From NCBI GenBank assembly GCA_009840445.1, contig VXNS01000049.1:1-32021 (forward strand): 32,021 nt of DNA, in the 5' to 3' direction. Of this stretch, positions 12,696-21,054 are shown in pieces. The DNA comes from Synechococcus sp. SB0662_bin_14. GTDB taxonomy: Bacteria; Cyanobacteriota; Cyanobacteriia; PCC-6307; Cyanobiaceae. The position numbers and the translations under genes were made by a program. The stretch's first letter is position 1; each line of letters opens with the position of its first letter. Under the pieces are notes generated by a model. The model saw nothing but the letters and a program-made list of their open reading frames with translations, searched no databases and was not told the DNA's origin.

Positions 12696-14290
12696 AGAAG
12701 CGGACCCGTCGGCTCGTCCGGAGTGGGGCCGTGGTGCTGGGGTCTCTCCTGGCCCTGTGGATGGTCATCACCTTGTTGGCGGGGCTGGCCCAAAGTCTGC
12801 AAACCCTGGCGGGTGGCTGGGGGGCGCCCCTGTTTCTGGTCATCCTGGCGGCCCTGGGCTGGTTGGGCTGGACCACATGGCAAGGGCAACAGCAGGGCTC
12901 ACGACAGGGCAGGCGCGCCAGCGGCAAAGCCGGCAGCCAGGCCCTGCCCATGGCCTTCGACTCCAAGCGGGAAGCCGCCGGGGAACACCTGGACAGCATT
13001 GGGCGGCAGTTGGAACTGGTGCAGGATCAGGTGATGCGCCAGGCCTTGGAGAGTGAGCGACGCCAAGTGGCGGCGGAGTTGGAACGGGGGGATCTGGTGG
13101 TGGTGGTGTTCGGCACAGGCTCCAGCGGCAAGACCTCCCTGATCCGTGCCCTCCTGGGGGAGATGGTGGGTTCCGCGGAGCCTGCCATGGGTTCCACCCA
13201 GGCCAGCCACACCTACCGACTCCCCATGGCAGGTCTCAACCGTGGCGTGCGGCTGGTGGATACGCCGGGCATCCTGGAAAGCGGCGTCCAGGGACAGCGG
13301 CGGGAAGACATGGCGCGGCGTCAAGCGGTGCAGGCGGATCTGCTGTTGTTTGTGGTGGACGGTGACCTGCGGGACAGCGAGTTGCGCATGGTGCGGTTGC
13401 TGCTGTCCCTGGGCAAGCGTCTCCTGCTGGTGCTCAACAAGTGCGACCTGCTGGGGCAACGGCAGGAACAGCGGCTGTTGCAGGTGCTGCGGCAGCGCTG
13501 CGCCCCCCAACTGCCGCCGGAGGACGTGATTCCCGCCAGCAGTGCGCCACCCCGGTTGGCCGCTGCACCGGGGATGCCCCCACCCGTCCCCGAGGTGGCG
13601 GCCCTGTTGCGGCGCCTGGCCCAGGTGCTGCGCCTTGAGGGGGACGAACTGATGGCCGACAACATCCTTCTGCAAAGCCGCCACCTCTCCGTGGATACCG
13701 AGGCGGTGCTCACCAACCAGCGGGAACGGGCCAGCCGCACCGTCGTTGAGCGCTATGCCTGGATTGGCGGCGGCATCATCGCCCTGACACCCCTGCCGGG
13801 GCTGGACCTTTTGGGTGCGGCCGCGGTCAATGCCCAGATGGTACTGGAGCTGGGGCGGATCCATGGGGTGAAGCTGGGCCGGGACCAGGGGCGGGAACTG
13901 GCCCTGGCGGTGGGACGCACCATGACGGGTTTGGGCTTGGTGAAGGGGGGCACCCTGCTGCTCACCACAGCCCTCAGCGCTGCGTGGCCCGCACTGGTGG
14001 TGGCCAAGGCGCTGCAAGGGGTGAGCGCCGCATGGCTCACCCGGGTGGCCGGCGCCAGCCTGACGGAGTACTTCAGCCGTAACCAGGACTGGGGGGACGG
14101 GGGCATGGCCGCCGCCATCCGCAAGCACTACGACCTCAACCGCCGCCACACCCAACTCAACGACTTCCTCACCATGGCGGTGGAGCGGATCGTGGAGCCC
14201 CTGCAACGACGCCTGAAAGGTGTGCCGCCAGGCCAGCAGACAAACCAACCACCGGCGCCGGCGTCAGGGCGGAGCGATGATCCAGAATGA
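12692..14290 (+). CDS. Membrane-linked GTPase with DUF697 domain
   Basis: The 532-residue protein has two N-terminal membrane helices (about residues 14-34 and 45-61) and a coiled linker. A Era/YeeP-type G domain follows, with P-loop GTGSSGKTS at 141-149, DTPG at 190-193 and NKCD at 249-252. The DUF697 region, with GGGIIALTPLPGLDLLG and hydrophobic helices, spans about 350-470. The role of these proteins is not established. It is translationally coupled to lspA. Its last about 15 codons lie inside the left copy of a duplicated sequence, antisense to a small gene remnant, so the extreme C-terminus may not be ancestral. Confidence 0.85.
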   Translation: MKKRTRRLVRSGAVVLGSLLALWMVITLLAGLAQSLQTLAGGWGAPLFLVILAALGWLGWTTWQGQQQGSRQGRRASGKAGSQALPMAFDSKREAAGEHLDSIGRQLELVQDQVMRQALESERRQVAAELERGDLVVVVFGTGSSGKTSLIRALLGEMVGSAEPAMGSTQASHTYRLPMAGLNRGVRLVDTPGILESGVQGQRREDMARRQAVQADLLLFVVDGDLRDSELRMVRLLLSLGKRLLLVLNKCDLLGQRQEQRLLQVLRQRCAPQLPPEDVIPASSAPPRLAAAPGMPPPVPEVAALLRRLAQVLRLEGDELMADNILLQSRHLSVDTEAVLTNQRERASRTVVERYAWIGGGIIALTPLPGLDLLGAAAVNAQMVLELGRIHGVKLGRDQGRELALAVGRTMTGLGLVKGGTLLLTTALSAAWPALVVAKALQGVSAAWLTRVAGASLTEYFSRNQDWGDGGMAAAIRKHYDLNRRHTQLNDFLTMAVERIVEPLQRRLKGVPPGQQTNQPPAPASGRSDDPE

Positions 14291-14386
14291 GCATCAACGC
14301 CAGGTAGAGCACCGCCAGGGCAATGGAGAGGATGCCTGTGATCAGGGCAACCAACTTGGGACGATCCATGGCTGAACGGGAACCGA
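14245..14386. repeat. Left copy of a diverged direct repeat flanking the defence cassette
   Basis: This segment matches 19509-19650 in direct orientation without gaps. I count nine mismatches over the first roughly 137 aligned bases. On the minus strand it contains a copy (ATG at 14369) of the small membrane-protein gene found intact at 19469-19633. The first 42 codons agree apart from three residues, after which the reading runs into the antisense of the GTPase gene end. Confidence 0.9.
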
Positions 14387-14390
14387 GTCA

Positions 14391-14441
14391 AAGCTTCAGC
14401 ACCTCCGCCGGACGGGTACCCTGGAGGCTACAGTCTCCGCC
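14391..14441 (-). pseudogene. Fragment of the PLP decarboxylase gene
   Basis: About 50 bases here match 19987-20036 inside the intact decarboxylase gene, with four substitutions and a three-base gap. It sits directly next to the left repeat copy. The 335 or so decarboxylase bases that should separate the two (19651-19985) are missing. It is therefore a remnant of a second decarboxylase copy with an internal deletion. From 14442 to 14501 I see no feature. Confidence 0.8.
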
Positions 14442-14501
14442 ACCGTGGCCCATGCGGACTTCGCTTCCCCCCGTCTCACATTTCATCTGACCTGCACTCA
14501 G

Positions 14502-16163
14502 CTAAAATCGCCATGTTTGCAACGCCAGATTGCTCAGTTCTCTTTGACGTTCCTCAATCGCTGATGTCGTCCATTCGTCCATTTTGGCAATCTGGTTCGT
14601 CAATTTATATTCAGAATTATTGTAAACAGGTTTCTTGTCCCTGTAAGGAGAGCTCTTCAGAGTCGAGTTGTCGCGGGACCTGAGCAGACAAAGATTCCCG
14701 ATCCGTTTGCAATACTGCCTCCTTTCATCTTCCGAAAACTGCGGCCAATTTCCCTCTGTTCTCTCTGGAAGCACATGTTCCAGGTTGATTTCGTCACTGT
14801 TATCATTAGGTATATGCCATGGCTGATCAACACTAACTGCTGCTAATTCCAGAGAGCGCAAGTAGTACCGTGCAAGTTTCGCGTTTGATACACGTGCAAT
14901 AGCGAATGACTGCGAAAACTCTGTGTTCGATGGTATGAAACCTGAAAGCTCCTCGCGCAGGTCACTAGCCGTTTTAATTGTCCCAGAGTAGATGTTTTTG
15001 GCCACATCCGCGAATCCTTTTTCAACGCTTCCCGTTCGCGTTTTTCCCGCAATCACTACTCGGACCATTGCGGACACACACAATGACATTGTCTGATTCA
15101 TTTCCTTATCTAGCATCTTCTCCGCGATCACTAATATCAGAGGGCGCATCGGCTTGACATCAACCAAATTGAATACATTGACCGCTTTTCTTGTTTCAAT
15201 TAAGTTATTCCATCTCTCATGACCAGTGTTGTAGATTGCCGCATACGTTGCCGCTGTTTTTGACAACTGACTTGCCAGTGTCGCAACTGTCTGTGGACTT
15301 TTTGCTATACCCTGAATAACGTCATGCACTTCTTTTTCGCGAACAAGGCCTCTCCTCAGCGTTAGTGCATGTCTCAGGAACTGGATTGTCAAATCTCCAT
15401 CCTCAATCGTCTCTAATGCACCCTGCATCTCCGACCAACTATGCTTAACCTCATTTATACGATCATCTGCTCTTCCAAACAGATAGTTCTTCACAAGATC
15501 CGCTTGTGTCGTTCGCAACCCACGATCATTTAGTGTCTCGAACATTCGGTAGGCATCTGCTTCGCTCGGTGCCTCAAGTCCTACAGCCATCGCACGGCTT
15601 TCGAGAAAGGTAATCCAGTCATTTAGCCTATCGCCGTGATCATTTTTATCAAAAGTCGACACAATGTTTCTTACTTATTTGTTAATTTCTGTAAACGCAT
15701 CTTTGAGAAGACGTTGTGAAGGCTTTACTGTCGAAGATGTCAATGGTTCTCCTGTCAATTGCGTGCGGAAATAGTCGTTGTCGTCCAGATTGAGCGTTAG
15801 CCTAGGTACTCTCTCCCTTCTTTTGCGATCAATTGTGAACAGAAACTCATGAATGGACTGACAGAGCTCGGGCTCGTTGCATTCTTGAAGATAGCTGTGG
15901 ATCTCGGCCAGCAGAATTGCGGTCGTCGCGAGCCTCTGCTGGCCGTCCACCACTTCAAGCATGTTGTCACTCTTACGGACCGTGACGATTGTCCCGACGA
16001 AGTAGGGAGTATCCTCGCTCCTGATTGACCGGGCAAAGTCCTGAAGCAAGGTGGTGACTTCCTCTTTAGTCCAAGAGTAGTTCCTTTGATTTGGTGGCAC
16101 GATCAGCCTGCTCTGCTTCAAGATGCTTGCCAGTCCCAGTTGCGAGAATTTGAATCCAGACAC
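14502..16163 (-). pseudogene. GmrSD-like DUF262/DUF1524 endonuclease, interrupted by an in-frame stop
   Basis: A 553-codon frame with one internal TAA at codon 163 (bases 15675-15677). The start is GTG 16163 behind an AAGGAG site. The N-terminal DUF262 part has VPPNQRNYSW near residue 22 and the NTPase hallmark DGQQR at 73-77. After the stop the same frame continues with FETLNDRGL, the second conserved DUF262 block, and a DUF1524 HNH-type end with EHVLPE (His at about 463), IGNLCLL and the final LQTW. The stop splits the DUF262 domain. GmrSD proteins are type IV restriction enzymes against modified phage DNA. A restart at GTG 15662 could make the C-terminal part separately, but a nonsense mutation or sequence error is more likely. 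AT-richer than its neighbours, suggesting transfer. Confidence 0.85.
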
Positions 16164-16197
16164 CAGTTTGCTCCTTCAGCATTACCGACCCAGGCTA

Positions 16198-17244
16198 TCA
16201 CCTTGTCGGGGAAACTGTACGAAAATCTCGCAGGAGTGTCTGGTCCATAAGATCGGGGACCTTATTCAAGGTGAACACCTTGCCCCGTGTGGCGAGGAGC
16301 AGTTTCCTCATGTCCTCACGGCGAACACCAAACCCCCTGCCCGCAATACAGGCAACCACCTGGAATCTGGGCTTGCCTGGGGGTTGACCGTCCATGCTGA
16401 GAGATCCAAGATGCTGGACCCGGGTCACCTTGTCCCGTGCTGTGCCGTCGTCTTCGGTCAGCTTCGCCTCAATCACAACTTTGGGGTTGAACTCGTTCGG
16501 CACCACGAAATCCGGTGCCTGGTCGAAGCCTGCCAGCCGCTCTGCCCGGCCTGTTCTCCGAAAGCTGATCCCTGCCTCCGTCAATACGGCCTCAATGGCG
16601 TTCTCAACCACGTTGCCAATCAGTTCGCTGATGGAGTCACGATGTCCGGCAAAAGGCCGTCCCAGGAGGCGTTCGTACAGGAGAACAGAATAGGGAATTC
16701 CAAGGTTGGCGGATGCCCTGACGCTGACCAGCCCTGCCTTGGTATCAGCCTTATCCAGGCGGTGCAGGGTATCGGCAGCCTGTCGAGGGACACCGGATGC
16801 CAGGGCATGGCAGGCAGCAGAGATCAAAGCACCAATACGCCGCCCCTGCACGGTCCCTGGCTTTGGCAACGGAGCTTGCGGATCCATGCGGATATTGCGA
16901 TCAACGGCGCGAGCTGCATTCTGGGTCACGCTGATACCAGTCTGGTGACTGGCGTAGTATGCCCATTCCGGAGGCGTGAAGCCAATCATGCACCGGAGAA
17001 CAACAAGTGCAATCGGGGTGTCGTACACGGCGGAGACAAGCGTCTCGGGCGTTACCTCACAAAACCCTCCTGTTGCACGTTTCAGGCACTCGTATCCCTC
17101 TTCAAACACTGCAAACTCGACGAATCCCTTGCCCTTGGGCATGACAAGAAACTCGGACGTCAGGCAACTGAATATGGCATCAATATAAACATCCAGGTCG
17201 GCCTGGATCTCCTCAAACGAGACTTCAAACGGAAACTTCACCAT
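16198..17244 (-). CDS. PD-(D/E)XK-type restriction endonuclease, putative
   Basis: The 348-residue protein starts at ATG 17244, which overlaps the methylase stop (ATGGTGA). The C-terminal third has a PD-(D/E)XK core: a helix with ELIGNVVENAIEAVL near 207-220, then Asp245 in APDFVVPN, and Glu259-x-Lys261 in VVIEAKLT. A conserved Arg/Gln helix (DKVTRVQHLGSL) follows. The N-terminal two thirds match nothing I recognise and may bind DNA. Overlap with a DNA methylase gene implies a restriction-modification pair, in which this would cut unmethylated target DNA. An upstream extension of the frame is antisense-like to conserved methylase sequence and is rejected. Confidence 0.78.
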   Translation of the reverse strand: MVKFPFEVSFEEIQADLDVYIDAIFSCLTSEFLVMPKGKGFVEFAVFEEGYECLKRATGGFCEVTPETLVSAVYDTPIALVVLRCMIGFTPPEWAYYASHQTGISVTQNAARAVDRNIRMDPQAPLPKPGTVQGRRIGALISAACHALASGVPRQAADTLHRLDKADTKAGLVSVRASANLGIPYSVLLYERLLGRPFAGHRDSISELIGNVVENAIEAVLTEAGISFRRTGRAERLAGFDQAPDFVVPNEFNPKVVIEAKLTEDDGTARDKVTRVQHLGSLSMDGQPPGKPRFQVVACIAGRGFGVRREDMRKLLLATRGKVFTLNKVPDLMDQTLLRDFRTVSPTR

Positions 17245-19418
17245 AGTGTCCCCACGATTTTCCGGACCGGCGCCGTGGGCACGGGTGGTTTGGGTTTGTG
17301 TGAAGCCTCGGCTGCTTGGCGGGCAAGGGCTTCTACGTCGCCAAAAGCCACCATTCGGTTCCGTAGGTGGGAGAGCTTCTCGGCTGTCGTTGCGGATCGG
17401 TTCCAGTGCGGGCGCAGTTGCTCCACGGCAACCCGCGTCAGATGTCCGAACAGAACGCATCGGGCATCCCCGTGGGTTGGGGTCCTCCCCGCCATTGCCA
17501 ACTGGGCCAGGTCATGGGCCACCACCGCCACCAGGTCTGCAACCGTGGCCGGGGTCTTCCCGACGGGCCTGACCCTGGAATCCCGGCATACAAAGACGGT
17601 GTCCACAATCGACGAAGCTTTTCCGTGGATATGAATGGATCCCCCCATCTCCGCGGGACACGGCAACACAGCCGAACAGGCGAGGCCGGCATCAAGGATC
17701 GCGAGCCCTACGGCGCAATAGGCATTCAACTTGTTGTGGTGATAGGTGAAAGCCAGGGGCGCTTCGGGCTTCAGCGCGTCTGCCATGCGGCAATAGACGT
17801 TGGCCAGTCCCTCGGCAAAGTGCTCAAGGCCACGCAACTGGGTAACGTTGCCGGTCAGTTCATCCGTGGACCGTGTGGAAGGCCGATCAAATCCCTCCGT
17901 ACCCGGCGGAGCCAGTCGCCGCAGCCACACATAGCAGAAATCCATGAGTTCCCCGTACTGGACGTTGCCGAAGTAGGGTGGGTCCGTAAACACGGCATCC
18001 AGCGTTCCGGCAGGCAGCGCCACCTGGGCCGAATCTGCACAGTGGATGGCGACGCTCCGGTGCGTGCTGTTCGGGCAATCCCCGATCCACTCGCCGTCAA
18101 TGGGGACGCGCACCTTGTGCTTCCCCTTGGAGCGAACTTCAAAGGGAGCTTGGCAGTAACTCTTCGCCTTGGTGTATTTCTGGATGATGTTCCACCAGCC
18201 TCCCGACCCCACGTTGCCGCCGGCGTCATTGGTGATACCCAAAAGGTTCGATTCGCACTGCACGAGACCCACCGGAAAGCCATGAACAGAAAAAATATCC
18301 AGTGACTTCAGCGCCATGGTGTCGTAGCGGCACAACATGTTCTGGTATCGCAAGAGGTCCGACAGGTTGGTGGCCAGTGCTGCACGGATCCTCTCGTTCG
18401 GTATCTCCGCAATCAACCGGCAACTGAGTTCCAGTCCTAACAATTGGCGAGGATTGAACAGTTGCCGATACCGGCTGTAGCCCCAGCGGTGCAGTCGTGA
18501 GGTTTCATCACCAGGGGGAATGGATTCATCGGGCACAAAGCGTGCGCCCAGGCGCCGCCAATGTTCACAGGCGGCATCAACCCGGGCGAGATCGTCAGGA
18601 TCAGGCTTCTTGAAGAAGCGGCCCTTATGCGCCGGCTTTCTCTTGGGGTTGTGGTACTCGATGGCAAAGAGACGATGCTCCAGAGGAGCGCGTCGCTCGC
18701 CCGGGTAGCTGTTATCGGCCCCGCAGCGGGGACACATGCACCGGCCCCGACGAGCGGGGGGTCCCGCGATGGAAAGAGTGGCGCCACACCCATGACAGTC
18801 CCCTGGGGCACGCCGTTCGGCAACCTCGTTCAGGGCGCCACACTGATGACAGACCACCAGGTTCTTCGGGTGGCGACGATCTTCAGCAAGTAGATACCCT
18901 GGAAACAGGTCGAAGGTGAAACCACAGGCGTCACACGTCAGCACCTTGACCCAGAGAAAAGATTTGACGGGAACGTCAGGGTCGCCGTAAAGGGGGCAGG
19001 ATGTGCGGTAGTAGACGCCCACTTGGCTCCCCAGGGTTGCTACAAGCTCGGTGGCAGCTTGTTTGTAGCGCTTAAGGTCGAGCCCTTGAATTTCTTCCCG
19101 GACAATCCACGCGGCCATCGGATTCACGTCAAAGCCGATAACGTCAAAACCGAGGCGGTTGGCCTCGATCAAGGGCGTGCCGCCGCCCATGAAGGGGTCG
19201 GCAATCCGCAGGCCCGAGAAATCGTTGGCTTCAAAGAACAGCCGCTCCAGGTGGTCGTCTCCAAATTCCGCCAGCATCAGCCCACGGAACAGCGTCCCGG
19301 GACGGCGGGCAAACCACTTGTGGACAGCGATAATGGGCCGGTAATTCTGCTGGATCTGCTTTTCCTTCAGCGCCATCCCGGCAATGAACGGGACGTTGAA
19401 GCGCTCCTCAATGCCCAT
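17238..19418 (-). CDS. COG1743-type adenine-specific DNA methylase with zinc ribbons
   Basis: The 726-residue protein opens with a HKWFARRPG block (about 33-41) typical of COG1743/DUF1156-related methylases. AdoMet-binding motif I is DPFMGGGT (74-81) and catalytic motif IV is TDPPY (478-482). Between them lie four CxxC pairs at about 162, 190, 208 and 229, forming two zinc ribbons. DPPY indicates exocyclic amino (N6-adenine or N4-cytosine) methylation; the target site is unknown. It overlaps the nuclease gene by seven bases and heads the three-gene cassette. ATG start with a GAGAG run eight bases upstream. Confidence 0.9.
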   Translation of the reverse strand: MGIEERFNVPFIAGMALKEKQIQQNYRPIIAVHKWFARRPGTLFRGLMLAEFGDDHLERLFFEANDFSGLRIADPFMGGGTPLIEANRLGFDVIGFDVNPMAAWIVREEIQGLDLKRYKQAATELVATLGSQVGVYYRTSCPLYGDPDVPVKSFLWVKVLTCDACGFTFDLFPGYLLAEDRRHPKNLVVCHQCGALNEVAERRAPGDCHGCGATLSIAGPPARRGRCMCPRCGADNSYPGERRAPLEHRLFAIEYHNPKRKPAHKGRFFKKPDPDDLARVDAACEHWRRLGARFVPDESIPPGDETSRLHRWGYSRYRQLFNPRQLLGLELSCRLIAEIPNERIRAALATNLSDLLRYQNMLCRYDTMALKSLDIFSVHGFPVGLVQCESNLLGITNDAGGNVGSGGWWNIIQKYTKAKSYCQAPFEVRSKGKHKVRVPIDGEWIGDCPNSTHRSVAIHCADSAQVALPAGTLDAVFTDPPYFGNVQYGELMDFCYVWLRRLAPPGTEGFDRPSTRSTDELTGNVTQLRGLEHFAEGLANVYCRMADALKPEAPLAFTYHHNKLNAYCAVGLAILDAGLACSAVLPCPAEMGGSIHIHGKASSIVDTVFVCRDSRVRPVGKTPATVADLVAVVAHDLAQLAMAGRTPTHGDARCVLFGHLTRVAVEQLRPHWNRSATTAEKLSHLRNRMVAFGDVEALARQAAEASHKPKPPVPTAPVRKIVGTLW

Positions 19419-19468
19419 GACCAGTCTCTCGACGCTGTTCCTTGATCACGGGGCGCCCACCGGCCTGT

Positions 19469-19633
19469 TCACTGAGTCCTCACCACTATACCTTGCACCG
19501 AACCGGCCCCAACCACCGGCGCCGGCGTCAGGGCGGAGCGATGATCCAGGATGAGCACCAAGGCCAGGTAGAGCACCGCCAGGACAATGGAGAAGATGCC
19601 TGTGATCAGGGCCACCAACTTGGGACGATCCAT
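19469..19633 (-). CDS. Small membrane protein (intact copy)
   Basis: A 54-residue protein: MDRPKL start, one long hydrophobic helix (about residues 7-29), LDHRSALTPAPVV, then a 12-residue end. I recognise the first 42 residues as a small conserved cyanobacterial protein without known function. A second copy of those 42 residues is present on the minus strand from 14369. The two sequences diverge after the same Val-Val-Gly, which is the repeat boundary, so the last 12 residues here may have been acquired at the junction. It follows the decarboxylase gene on the same strand after 17 bases. Confidence 0.7.
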   Translation of the reverse strand: MDRPKLVALITGIFSIVLAVLYLALVLILDHRSALTPAPVVGAGSVQGIVVRTQ

Positions 19634-19650
19634 GACTGAGTGGGAACGGC
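19509..19650. repeat. Right copy of the diverged direct repeat
   Basis: Matches 14245-14386 in direct orientation at an offset of 5264 bases with no gaps. This copy is continuous with the intact decarboxylase gene, while the left copy jumps 335 bases. Similarity stops at 19509, immediately inside the cassette edge. Confidence 0.9.
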
Positions 19651-21054
19651 TTAACGGGCGAGGCTGGCGGAGACGGTGCCCACCACTGTGGCAATCTGCT
19701 CCACCCCGGTGGCGGGATTGCCCAGCACGGCTTTGAGATAGCGTTGCCCACGATAGAGGGGACGGGAGAGCATCAGTCCTTGGTCCAGCAACTGCTCCCG
19801 GGTGCGGCGGCTCCAGGCCTCGCTGCTGCCGGCCGTGCCGGGGCGGAAGCAGACGATGTGCAAATCCCCCGACGGCATGACCAGGGGCAGGGGGGCCAGG
19901 TCATGCCGCAGGGTTTGGGCCCGTTGCAAGGCCCCGTCCAGCAGTTCGTCAATGCCCTGTTGCCCCAGGTGCCGTAGACCCAGCCACAGCTTCAACACCT
20001 CCGCCGGACGGGTGCCCTGGAGGCCACAATCTCCACCGTGGACCCCACGGGCGGGCTCCATGTAGGCCAGGGGTGCGGCAAAGGTGTCGGCCAATGCCTG
20101 GGGCTGGCGCAACAACACCATGGCCGAAGCCTTGGCAATGCCCAGCCATTTCTGGGGATTCATGGTGAGGGAGTCGGCGCAGCCCAGGTGGGCCACCCGC
20201 CCCTGGTGGCGCTGGCTGAGACCACAGACGGCGCCAATGGCGCCATCCACGTGGAGCCAGAGACCACGGCGGTGGCAGATGTCGGCCATGGGACCGATGG
20301 GATCAACCGCGCCGCGGATGGTGGTGCCGGCGGTGGCCACCACCGCCAGGATGGGCTCCGTCTCCTGCGCCAGGGCCTCATCCAGCCGGTGGGGATCCAG
20401 GCGTCCGCTGGCATCGGTGGGCACCAGCCGCAGGGCCGCCGCAGGCAGGCCCATCACCCGCAGGGCTTTGGCCAGGGAACTGTGGCAATCGGCGCTGGCA
20501 TAGAGGCAGGCCTGTTGCCCGTCCAACCCCCGCTGATGGCGGGCCGTGACCAGGGCCGTGATGGTGCAAAGGGTCCCCCCACTGGCCATGACGCCCCCAG
20601 CACCCTCCCCCATGCCCAGCCGGTGCGCAATCCAGCCCAATAAACGCCGCTCCAGTTGGCTGAGCAACGGTGAAAGCTCCTCCGCCAACATGTTGTTGTT
20701 GAGCCAGGCGCAGACCAGCTCCCCCACCACGGAGGCTGAATTGGGCGGGGGATCCAGGTGGGCCATGGCCCCCGGATGCCAAGGGTTGTAGGACCCCCGC
20801 ACCAGCGGGTCCAGGTCCTCCATGAGACTGGCGGCATCCAGCCCCCGCGGTGCCGGCGCCACGGGGGGCAGGGGAACGGGACCGGGCAAGGGTGACCGCT
20901 GCTGAGCCTCCCCATGCCACCGCTCCAACCAGGTCACCGCCTGACGGATCAGGGCCACCATGGTATGGCTGTGCTGGCCAGGGGGCAAACTGCAGGGGAA
21001 GGCGTCCAGGTCTGTCACCTGTACAGAACGATGGGGCACAGAACGATGGGGCAC
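19651..21054 (-). CDS. Group II PLP-dependent amino acid decarboxylase
   Basis: The 467-residue product has the aromatic-L-amino-acid/glutamate decarboxylase fold: PNSASVVGELVCAWLNNNM near 104, ASGGTLCTITAL near 157, SADCHSSLAKA with a PLP-stacking His191, HVDGA with Asp270, and the PLP lysine Lys302 in NPQKW. Substrate (aspartate, glutamate or aromatic) cannot be decided by eye. The start used is GTG 21054 inside a 15-base tandem repeat shared with the divergent tadA gene, so the first about 12 residues (PHRSV twice) are doubtful. A fragment of a second copy lies at 14391-14441. Confidence 0.9.
   Translation of the reverse strand: MPHRSVPHRSVQVTDLDAFPCSLPPGQHSHTMVALIRQAVTWLERWHGEAQQRSPLPGPVPLPPVAPAPRGLDAASLMEDLDPLVRGSYNPWHPGAMAHLDPPPNSASVVGELVCAWLNNNMLAEELSPLLSQLERRLLGWIAHRLGMGEGAGGVMASGGTLCTITALVTARHQRGLDGQQACLYASADCHSSLAKALRVMGLPAAALRLVPTDASGRLDPHRLDEALAQETEPILAVVATAGTTIRGAVDPIGPMADICHRRGLWLHVDGAIGAVCGLSQRHQGRVAHLGCADSLTMNPQKWLGIAKASAMVLLRQPQALADTFAAPLAYMEPARGVHGGDCGLQGTRPAEVLKLWLGLRHLGQQGIDELLDGALQRAQTLRHDLAPLPLVMPSGDLHIVCFRPGTAGSSEAWSRRTREQLLDQGLMLSRPLYRGQRYLKAVLGNPATGVEQIATVVGTVSASLAR

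Follow-up and report, generated by a model that had tools for sequence, protein, structure and literature searches.

The window analysed here, a stretch of 32,021 nt from Synechococcus sp. SB0662_bin_14, encodes a large DNA methylase whose gene overlaps that of a predicted nuclease, raising the question of whether the two proteins form a restriction-modification system and, if so, of which kind. An initial annotation had proposed a candidate little-described restriction-modification type, unlike the standard types I-III.

The gene pair and its recurrence

The following features define the pair.

17238..19418, minus strand: COG1743/DUF1156-related DNA methylase, predicted N6-adenine, 726 aa
19176..19199, minus strand: methylase motif I, DPFMGGGT (SAM binding), residues 74-81
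18723..18935, minus strand: methylase double zinc ribbon with four CxxC pairs (C162-C232), within the insert that separates motifs I and IV
17973..17984, minus strand: methylase motif IV, DPPY, residues 479-482
17238..17244, minus strand: overlap of methylase stop and nuclease start, ATGGTGA, 7 nt
16198..17244, minus strand: predicted PD-(D/E)XK restriction endonuclease, 348 aa, with a helical N-terminal part (about 1-181) and a core (about 185-330)
16510..16512, minus strand: predicted catalytic Asp245
16462..16470, minus strand: predicted catalytic Glu259-x-Lys261, on strand 256-262

Both proteins, their motifs and the seven-base overlap had been described in the initial annotation and were found as described, as was the lack of a specificity subunit or helicase beside the pair in the window. 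An in-frame GTG start in the nuclease gene would shorten the overlap to 4 nt, as in sister genomes. Judged from the sequence, the overlap may couple translation of the two proteins.

One genome per species (84,980 species) was searched with a nuclease profile. From the 364 loci that passed, the best 80, those most similar to the window nuclease, were kept, and in 80/80 of these the next gene upstream, on the same strand, encodes a homologue of the window methylase. Overlap of the two genes is seen in almost all homologous loci read, usually by 17 or 20 nt among the best 80. These 80 loci cover 18 phylum groups and are nearly all bacterial, with one from a methanomicrobial archaeon; all four viral contigs in the main clade likewise have the methylase immediately before the nuclease. 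Cultured hosts of the pair include Halochromatium roseum DSM 18859, Desulfacinum hydrothermale DSM 13146 and Heliophilum fasciatum DSM 11170. A phage collection yielded no nuclease homologue. In the reverse direction, a survey of 247 genomes of one phylum showed that all ten methylases scoring above 900 bits adjoin the nuclease, which in one case (G150) runs off the contig end. Pairwise divergence of the two proteins is correlated (Mantel r 0.80; best of 999 permutations 0.13). The initial annotation had named recurrent pairing as the mark of a system and nucleases that never pair with the methylase as evidence against one; the surveys bear out the former, and the methylase and nuclease are a recurrent, real unit.

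When 522 ORFs flanking the pair were clustered in search of a third conserved gene, no family occurred in more than 4 of the roughly 82 loci; several of the loci in these small families come from close relatives that share a site. In the same loci neither an ATPase nor a helicase gene family recurs beside the pair, nor does a specificity subunit, and no NTPase family was found in the methylase or the nuclease. Phyla are intermingled repeatedly in the tree, which has 32 label changes where the minimum would be 17. A unit that moves horizontally would give such a pattern, to which mixed bins could also contribute.

The methylase

The methylase has a DUF1156 N-terminus, motif I, an insert and DPPY, in that order, and DPFMGGG and DPPY are invariant in the alignment of homologues. 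The insert holds the CxxC pairs C162/165, C190/193, C208/211 and C229/232, and all eight cysteines are kept in 80/80 methylases, in agreement with the two zinc ribbons first noted between the motifs. The available text of PMC12839542 places the target-recognition insert of DUF1156/COG1743 methylases between motif I and motif IV, which is where the insert of the window methylase sits. The least conserved region is the C-terminus (621-726).

Matches to HmaB/DUF1156_MTase were obtained for 44/44 family members. DUF1156 itself matched 44/44 at E≤0.1 (best 2.7e-6), the window methylase scoring 17.8 bits, below the 24-bit cut-off. Profile-profile comparison with Hma-type DUF1156 methylases aligned 640 columns (probability 100, E 2.5e-90), and these methylases run about 200 residues past the end of the window methylase. 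The PADLOC MTase_II model PDLC03233 (731 positions) resembles the family in length and in the motif IV region in 44/44 members, but is a partial, remote match, at 59 bits for the window methylase. Searches of PDB sequences gave short SAM-site matches only, and the AF2 model is good (pTM 0.88). By sequence comparison the protein is a true COG1743/DUF1156 relative, as had been suggested, and m6A is its most likely product.

The window genome also offers a direct comparison, since elsewhere it carries a complete operon of an SNF2 helicase, a 941-aa DUF1156 methylase and a large DUF499-type ATPase (L014, G000:C44:44000-60000). This layout is Hma-like and separate from the window pair, so that both kinds can be examined side by side in one genome. 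After this operon lie a 405-aa methylase and a 250-aa protein (L014:13035-14917, minus strand), probably a separate type II pair.

The nuclease

Asp245, Glu259 and Lys261 are each invariant in 89/89 homologues, so that the loss of the E-x-K residues across the family, which the initial annotation had named as contrary evidence, was not seen. E214 is kept in 88/89 and the DxGTARDKxxR stretch is near invariant; the search patterns used APDF and GTARDK stretches, which biases the set toward D245 and residues 265-272 and leaves E259 and K261 unbiased. Conservation is lowest in residues 61-185.

An AF2 model, folded from an alignment without the plasmid homologue row, had a mean pLDDT of 87.7 and a pTM of 0.58. 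In the model the core consists of a helix (185-223), two strands (246-248 and 256-262), a further helix (266-284) and a strand (295-301); E259 and K261 share a strand. An order of helix, strands, helix and strand with E and K on the same strand is the PD-(D/E)XK arrangement, and the modelled core fits it. Among the best PDB fold matches (Foldseek) are BstEII, BsoBI and EcoT38I, which are type II enzymes, with E values of 0.006-0.05, a likeness that is suggestive only. Because of the pTM of 0.58 and because all fold matches lie above E 0.001, the placement of the domain is unsure. Profile-profile comparison matched the core to nucleases that Pfam places near DpnII and BanI (probability 97) and whose genes neighbour that of a small methylase.

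Curated restriction endonuclease families did not take in the nuclease. None of the family members scanned reached a Pfam family cut-off (the top match of the window nuclease, TPD, scored 16 bits against a cut-off of 27), an NCBIfam scan of the window nuclease was empty, a PADLOC scan of 50 members matched no family, and PDB sequence searches found nothing credible. By its sequence the nuclease is thus unclassified in Pfam, NCBIfam and PADLOC, a statement of class that extends to those libraries alone.

The island and its history

The pair lies within a small block that holds a second, interrupted gene and is flanked by direct repeats.

15675..16163, minus strand: GmrSD-type (HEC-06/Orf5-like) gene, N-terminal fragment, ending at an in-frame TAA (15675-15677)
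14502..15662, minus strand: GmrSD-type gene, C-terminal fragment, resuming in the same frame beyond the stop
14245..14383, plus strand: direct repeat copy 1, flank of the inserted block, 139 nt, 94% identical to 19509-19647
19509..19647, plus strand: direct repeat copy 2

A further flanking direct repeat of 60 nt, 87% identical, was seen in the regions 14245-14441 and 19509-20037. In the sister genome G008 position 14381 is joined directly to 19514, the 139-nt repeat occurs once and there is no insert; positions 14382-19513 of the window (5.1 kb) behave as an insert. The GmrSD gene, inside the insert with the pair, has a low G+C content (46.7%). It was considered as a component of the system and rejected, being present in 2 of about 82 loci.

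The host is a sponge symbiont of the Candidatus Synechococcus spongiarum type, and within its genus set the pair is present in 4 of 10 genomes, G004 among them. G007 carries it at the same site, with GmrSD cut down to its two ends, and G003 carries it near the same genes in a different order. In G005 the pair was not found and the first 12 codons of the methylase remain at the same place (L219:7687-7840); given this stump, the pair was probably lost there. The best reading of these data is that the pair was acquired horizontally, along with the GmrSD gene that is now broken, at the site which is unoccupied in G008. Among 244 cyanobacterial genomes the pair was found in the window's own genome only, which, together with its presence in 4 of 10 genomes of the genus, makes it look confined to this lineage within the cyanobacteria. 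Its nearest relatives outside the genus include several MAGs, presumably of sponge origin from their bin names (APA, COS and RHO), which would fit exchange of the pair inside sponges.

Relatives with other partners

Both proteins have distant relatives that keep other company. Nuclease homologues at 24-30% identity, on a Microbacterium plasmid, three viral contigs and two genomes (L010, L098-L100, L110, L111), adjoin instead an N6_N4 methylase of about 300 aa, compared with the 726-aa, double zinc-ribbon COG1743 methylase of the window. Conversely, relatives of the methylase (about 30% identity) are partnered by another nuclease-like protein, of about 255 aa (SYPDF...EGYExKG), encoded upstream, in a second kind of two-gene unit:

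L121:4965-7839: short zinc-ribbon COG1743-like methylase with the ~255-aa protein upstream
L199:1-3120: the same arrangement
L203:2302-5306: the same arrangement

These units resemble the window pair in having two genes and a methylase of about 720 aa with four CxxC pairs, which matches the window methylase with a profile probability of 100; they differ in that their nuclease looks unrelated and lies upstream, whereas that of the window lies downstream. The zinc ribbons, which the initial annotation had named as part of an arrangement unlike standard systems, are shared with other short COG1743 methylases and are not special to the window pair.

Two further arrangements were noted. In L198 and L201 a short COG1743 methylase adjoins a conserved protein of about 900 aa with a cysteine cluster (CQLCDYVRYC), possibly another system, and in L116-L118 DpnII/BanI-like nucleases related to the family of the window nuclease have E-x-S in place of E-x-K and lie beside a small methylase.

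Class of the system

A stand-alone methylase and a stand-alone nuclease, with no helicase, ATPase or specificity gene, constitute a type II layout, and the swapping of partners by both proteins fits type II as well. The type II systems DpnII, BanI, BstEII and BsoBI, the nearest relatives of the nuclease by profile or fold, likewise consist of a separate adjacent methylase and PD-(D/E)XK nuclease, lack an ATPase or specificity gene and mix and match their partners. Very probably, then, the pair is an ordinary, self-sufficient type II-style restriction-modification system, undescribed in the libraries searched, working as proposed below. Of the original proposal, a recurrent system that goes unnamed in the libraries and papers searched has stood; a new type, or one unlike types I-III, is not supported, the pair being a variant of the type II-style layout.

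No library model or paper naming the pair was found; what the literature searches on COG1743, DUF1156, Hma and zinc-ribbon methylases brought up either concerned multi-gene systems or was unrelated. As far as the available text of PMC7641849 and PMC12839542 extends, the COG1743 systems they treat are all of the multi-gene kind. The COG1743-DUF499-SWI2/SNF2 operons of PMC7641849 and the Hma/DUF499-centred BREX-related systems of PMC12839542 have methylases homologous to that of the window, over 640 columns for the latter. Unlike these systems, the window pair has a small nuclease in place of the helicase and DUF499 ATPase, and its methylase lacks their long C-terminal part.

The invariable pairing in the best 80 of 364 loci, the near-constant overlap, the matched divergence and the large, conserved methylase insert would all suit an obligate complex that relies on the zinc-ribbon methylase for all DNA recognition, the nuclease itself lacking specificity; such a complex would stand closer to type IIB/IIH or to a motorless type I enzyme. 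The nuclease, however, has distant relatives that sit beside a small methylase of another type, and the methylase family is also partnered by other nucleases; such swapping on both sides is not expected of an obligate, fixed complex, and we regard this explanation as improbable. As cleavage by the nuclease is a prediction, and as GmrSD on the same island belongs to type IV, we also weighed whether the nuclease might serve in repair or be modification-dependent (type IV), beside a methylase with a regulatory role. The one-to-one coupling with the methylase, the swapping of methylase types and the DpnII/BanI-like kinship fit restriction instead, and GmrSD adjoins so few of the loci that this alternative appears very improbable. 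Scarcely credible is a reduced Hma/DUF499-centred, BREX-related system with its helicase and ATPase encoded elsewhere: homology to HmaB-type methylases extends over nearly the whole methylase, and helicase and DUF499-type ATPase genes do exist elsewhere in the genome, but those genes flank a 941-aa methylase of their own, no such family recurs near the pair in the roughly 82 loci and the window methylase is without the Hma C-terminal part.

The recognition site

Motif-avoidance tests for the recognition site of the pair yielded no site. CAGCTG was the most avoided palindromic hexamer in the pooled pair loci, and it was avoided equally in 20 control genomes (0.49 vs 0.47). In the window genome 36 sites occur in 2.16 Mb (in 217 kb, 6 where about 61 would be expected); the hexamer is nearly absent also from the pair-less genomes G006, G008 and G009, and abundant in G001 (2257 occurrences). 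Because its scarcity does not follow the pair and the controls are equal, CAGCTG cannot be assigned to this system and was rejected as its site. As a separate observation, CAGCTG is almost absent from most genomes of the genus, with or without the pair, and a past or present PvuII-like system might be the cause.

Proposed mechanism and significance

In the type II-style system that we propose, the methylase would modify a short host DNA sequence, most likely by N6-adenine methylation, and the PD-(D/E)XK nuclease would cut the same sequence when unmodified, in a type IIP-like manner, using D245, E259, K261 and a metal ion and requiring no ATP. The overlap of the genes may serve to coordinate production of the two proteins, the methylase being made first. 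The pair would move horizontally as a unit, and the sponge-symbiont Synechococcus would have acquired it on a small defence island.

The cutting half of the pair goes unrecognised by the libraries searched in hundreds of genomes (364 loci, of which the best 80 were read for pairing), and for the marking half the match to Hma methylases is remote or partial. Recognition of the pair would add a restriction enzyme family with new, testable specificities and would guard against taking lone DUF1156 methylases for Hma remnants. With the same methylase lineage and no motor, the pair might even be a simple ancestor or a stripped-down descendant of the BREX-related/Hma complexes, an idea we consider unlikely and which in its strongest form would have the zinc-ribbon methylase also target the nuclease. 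The pair may in any event serve as a simple two-gene relative in which to study the origins of BREX-related systems.
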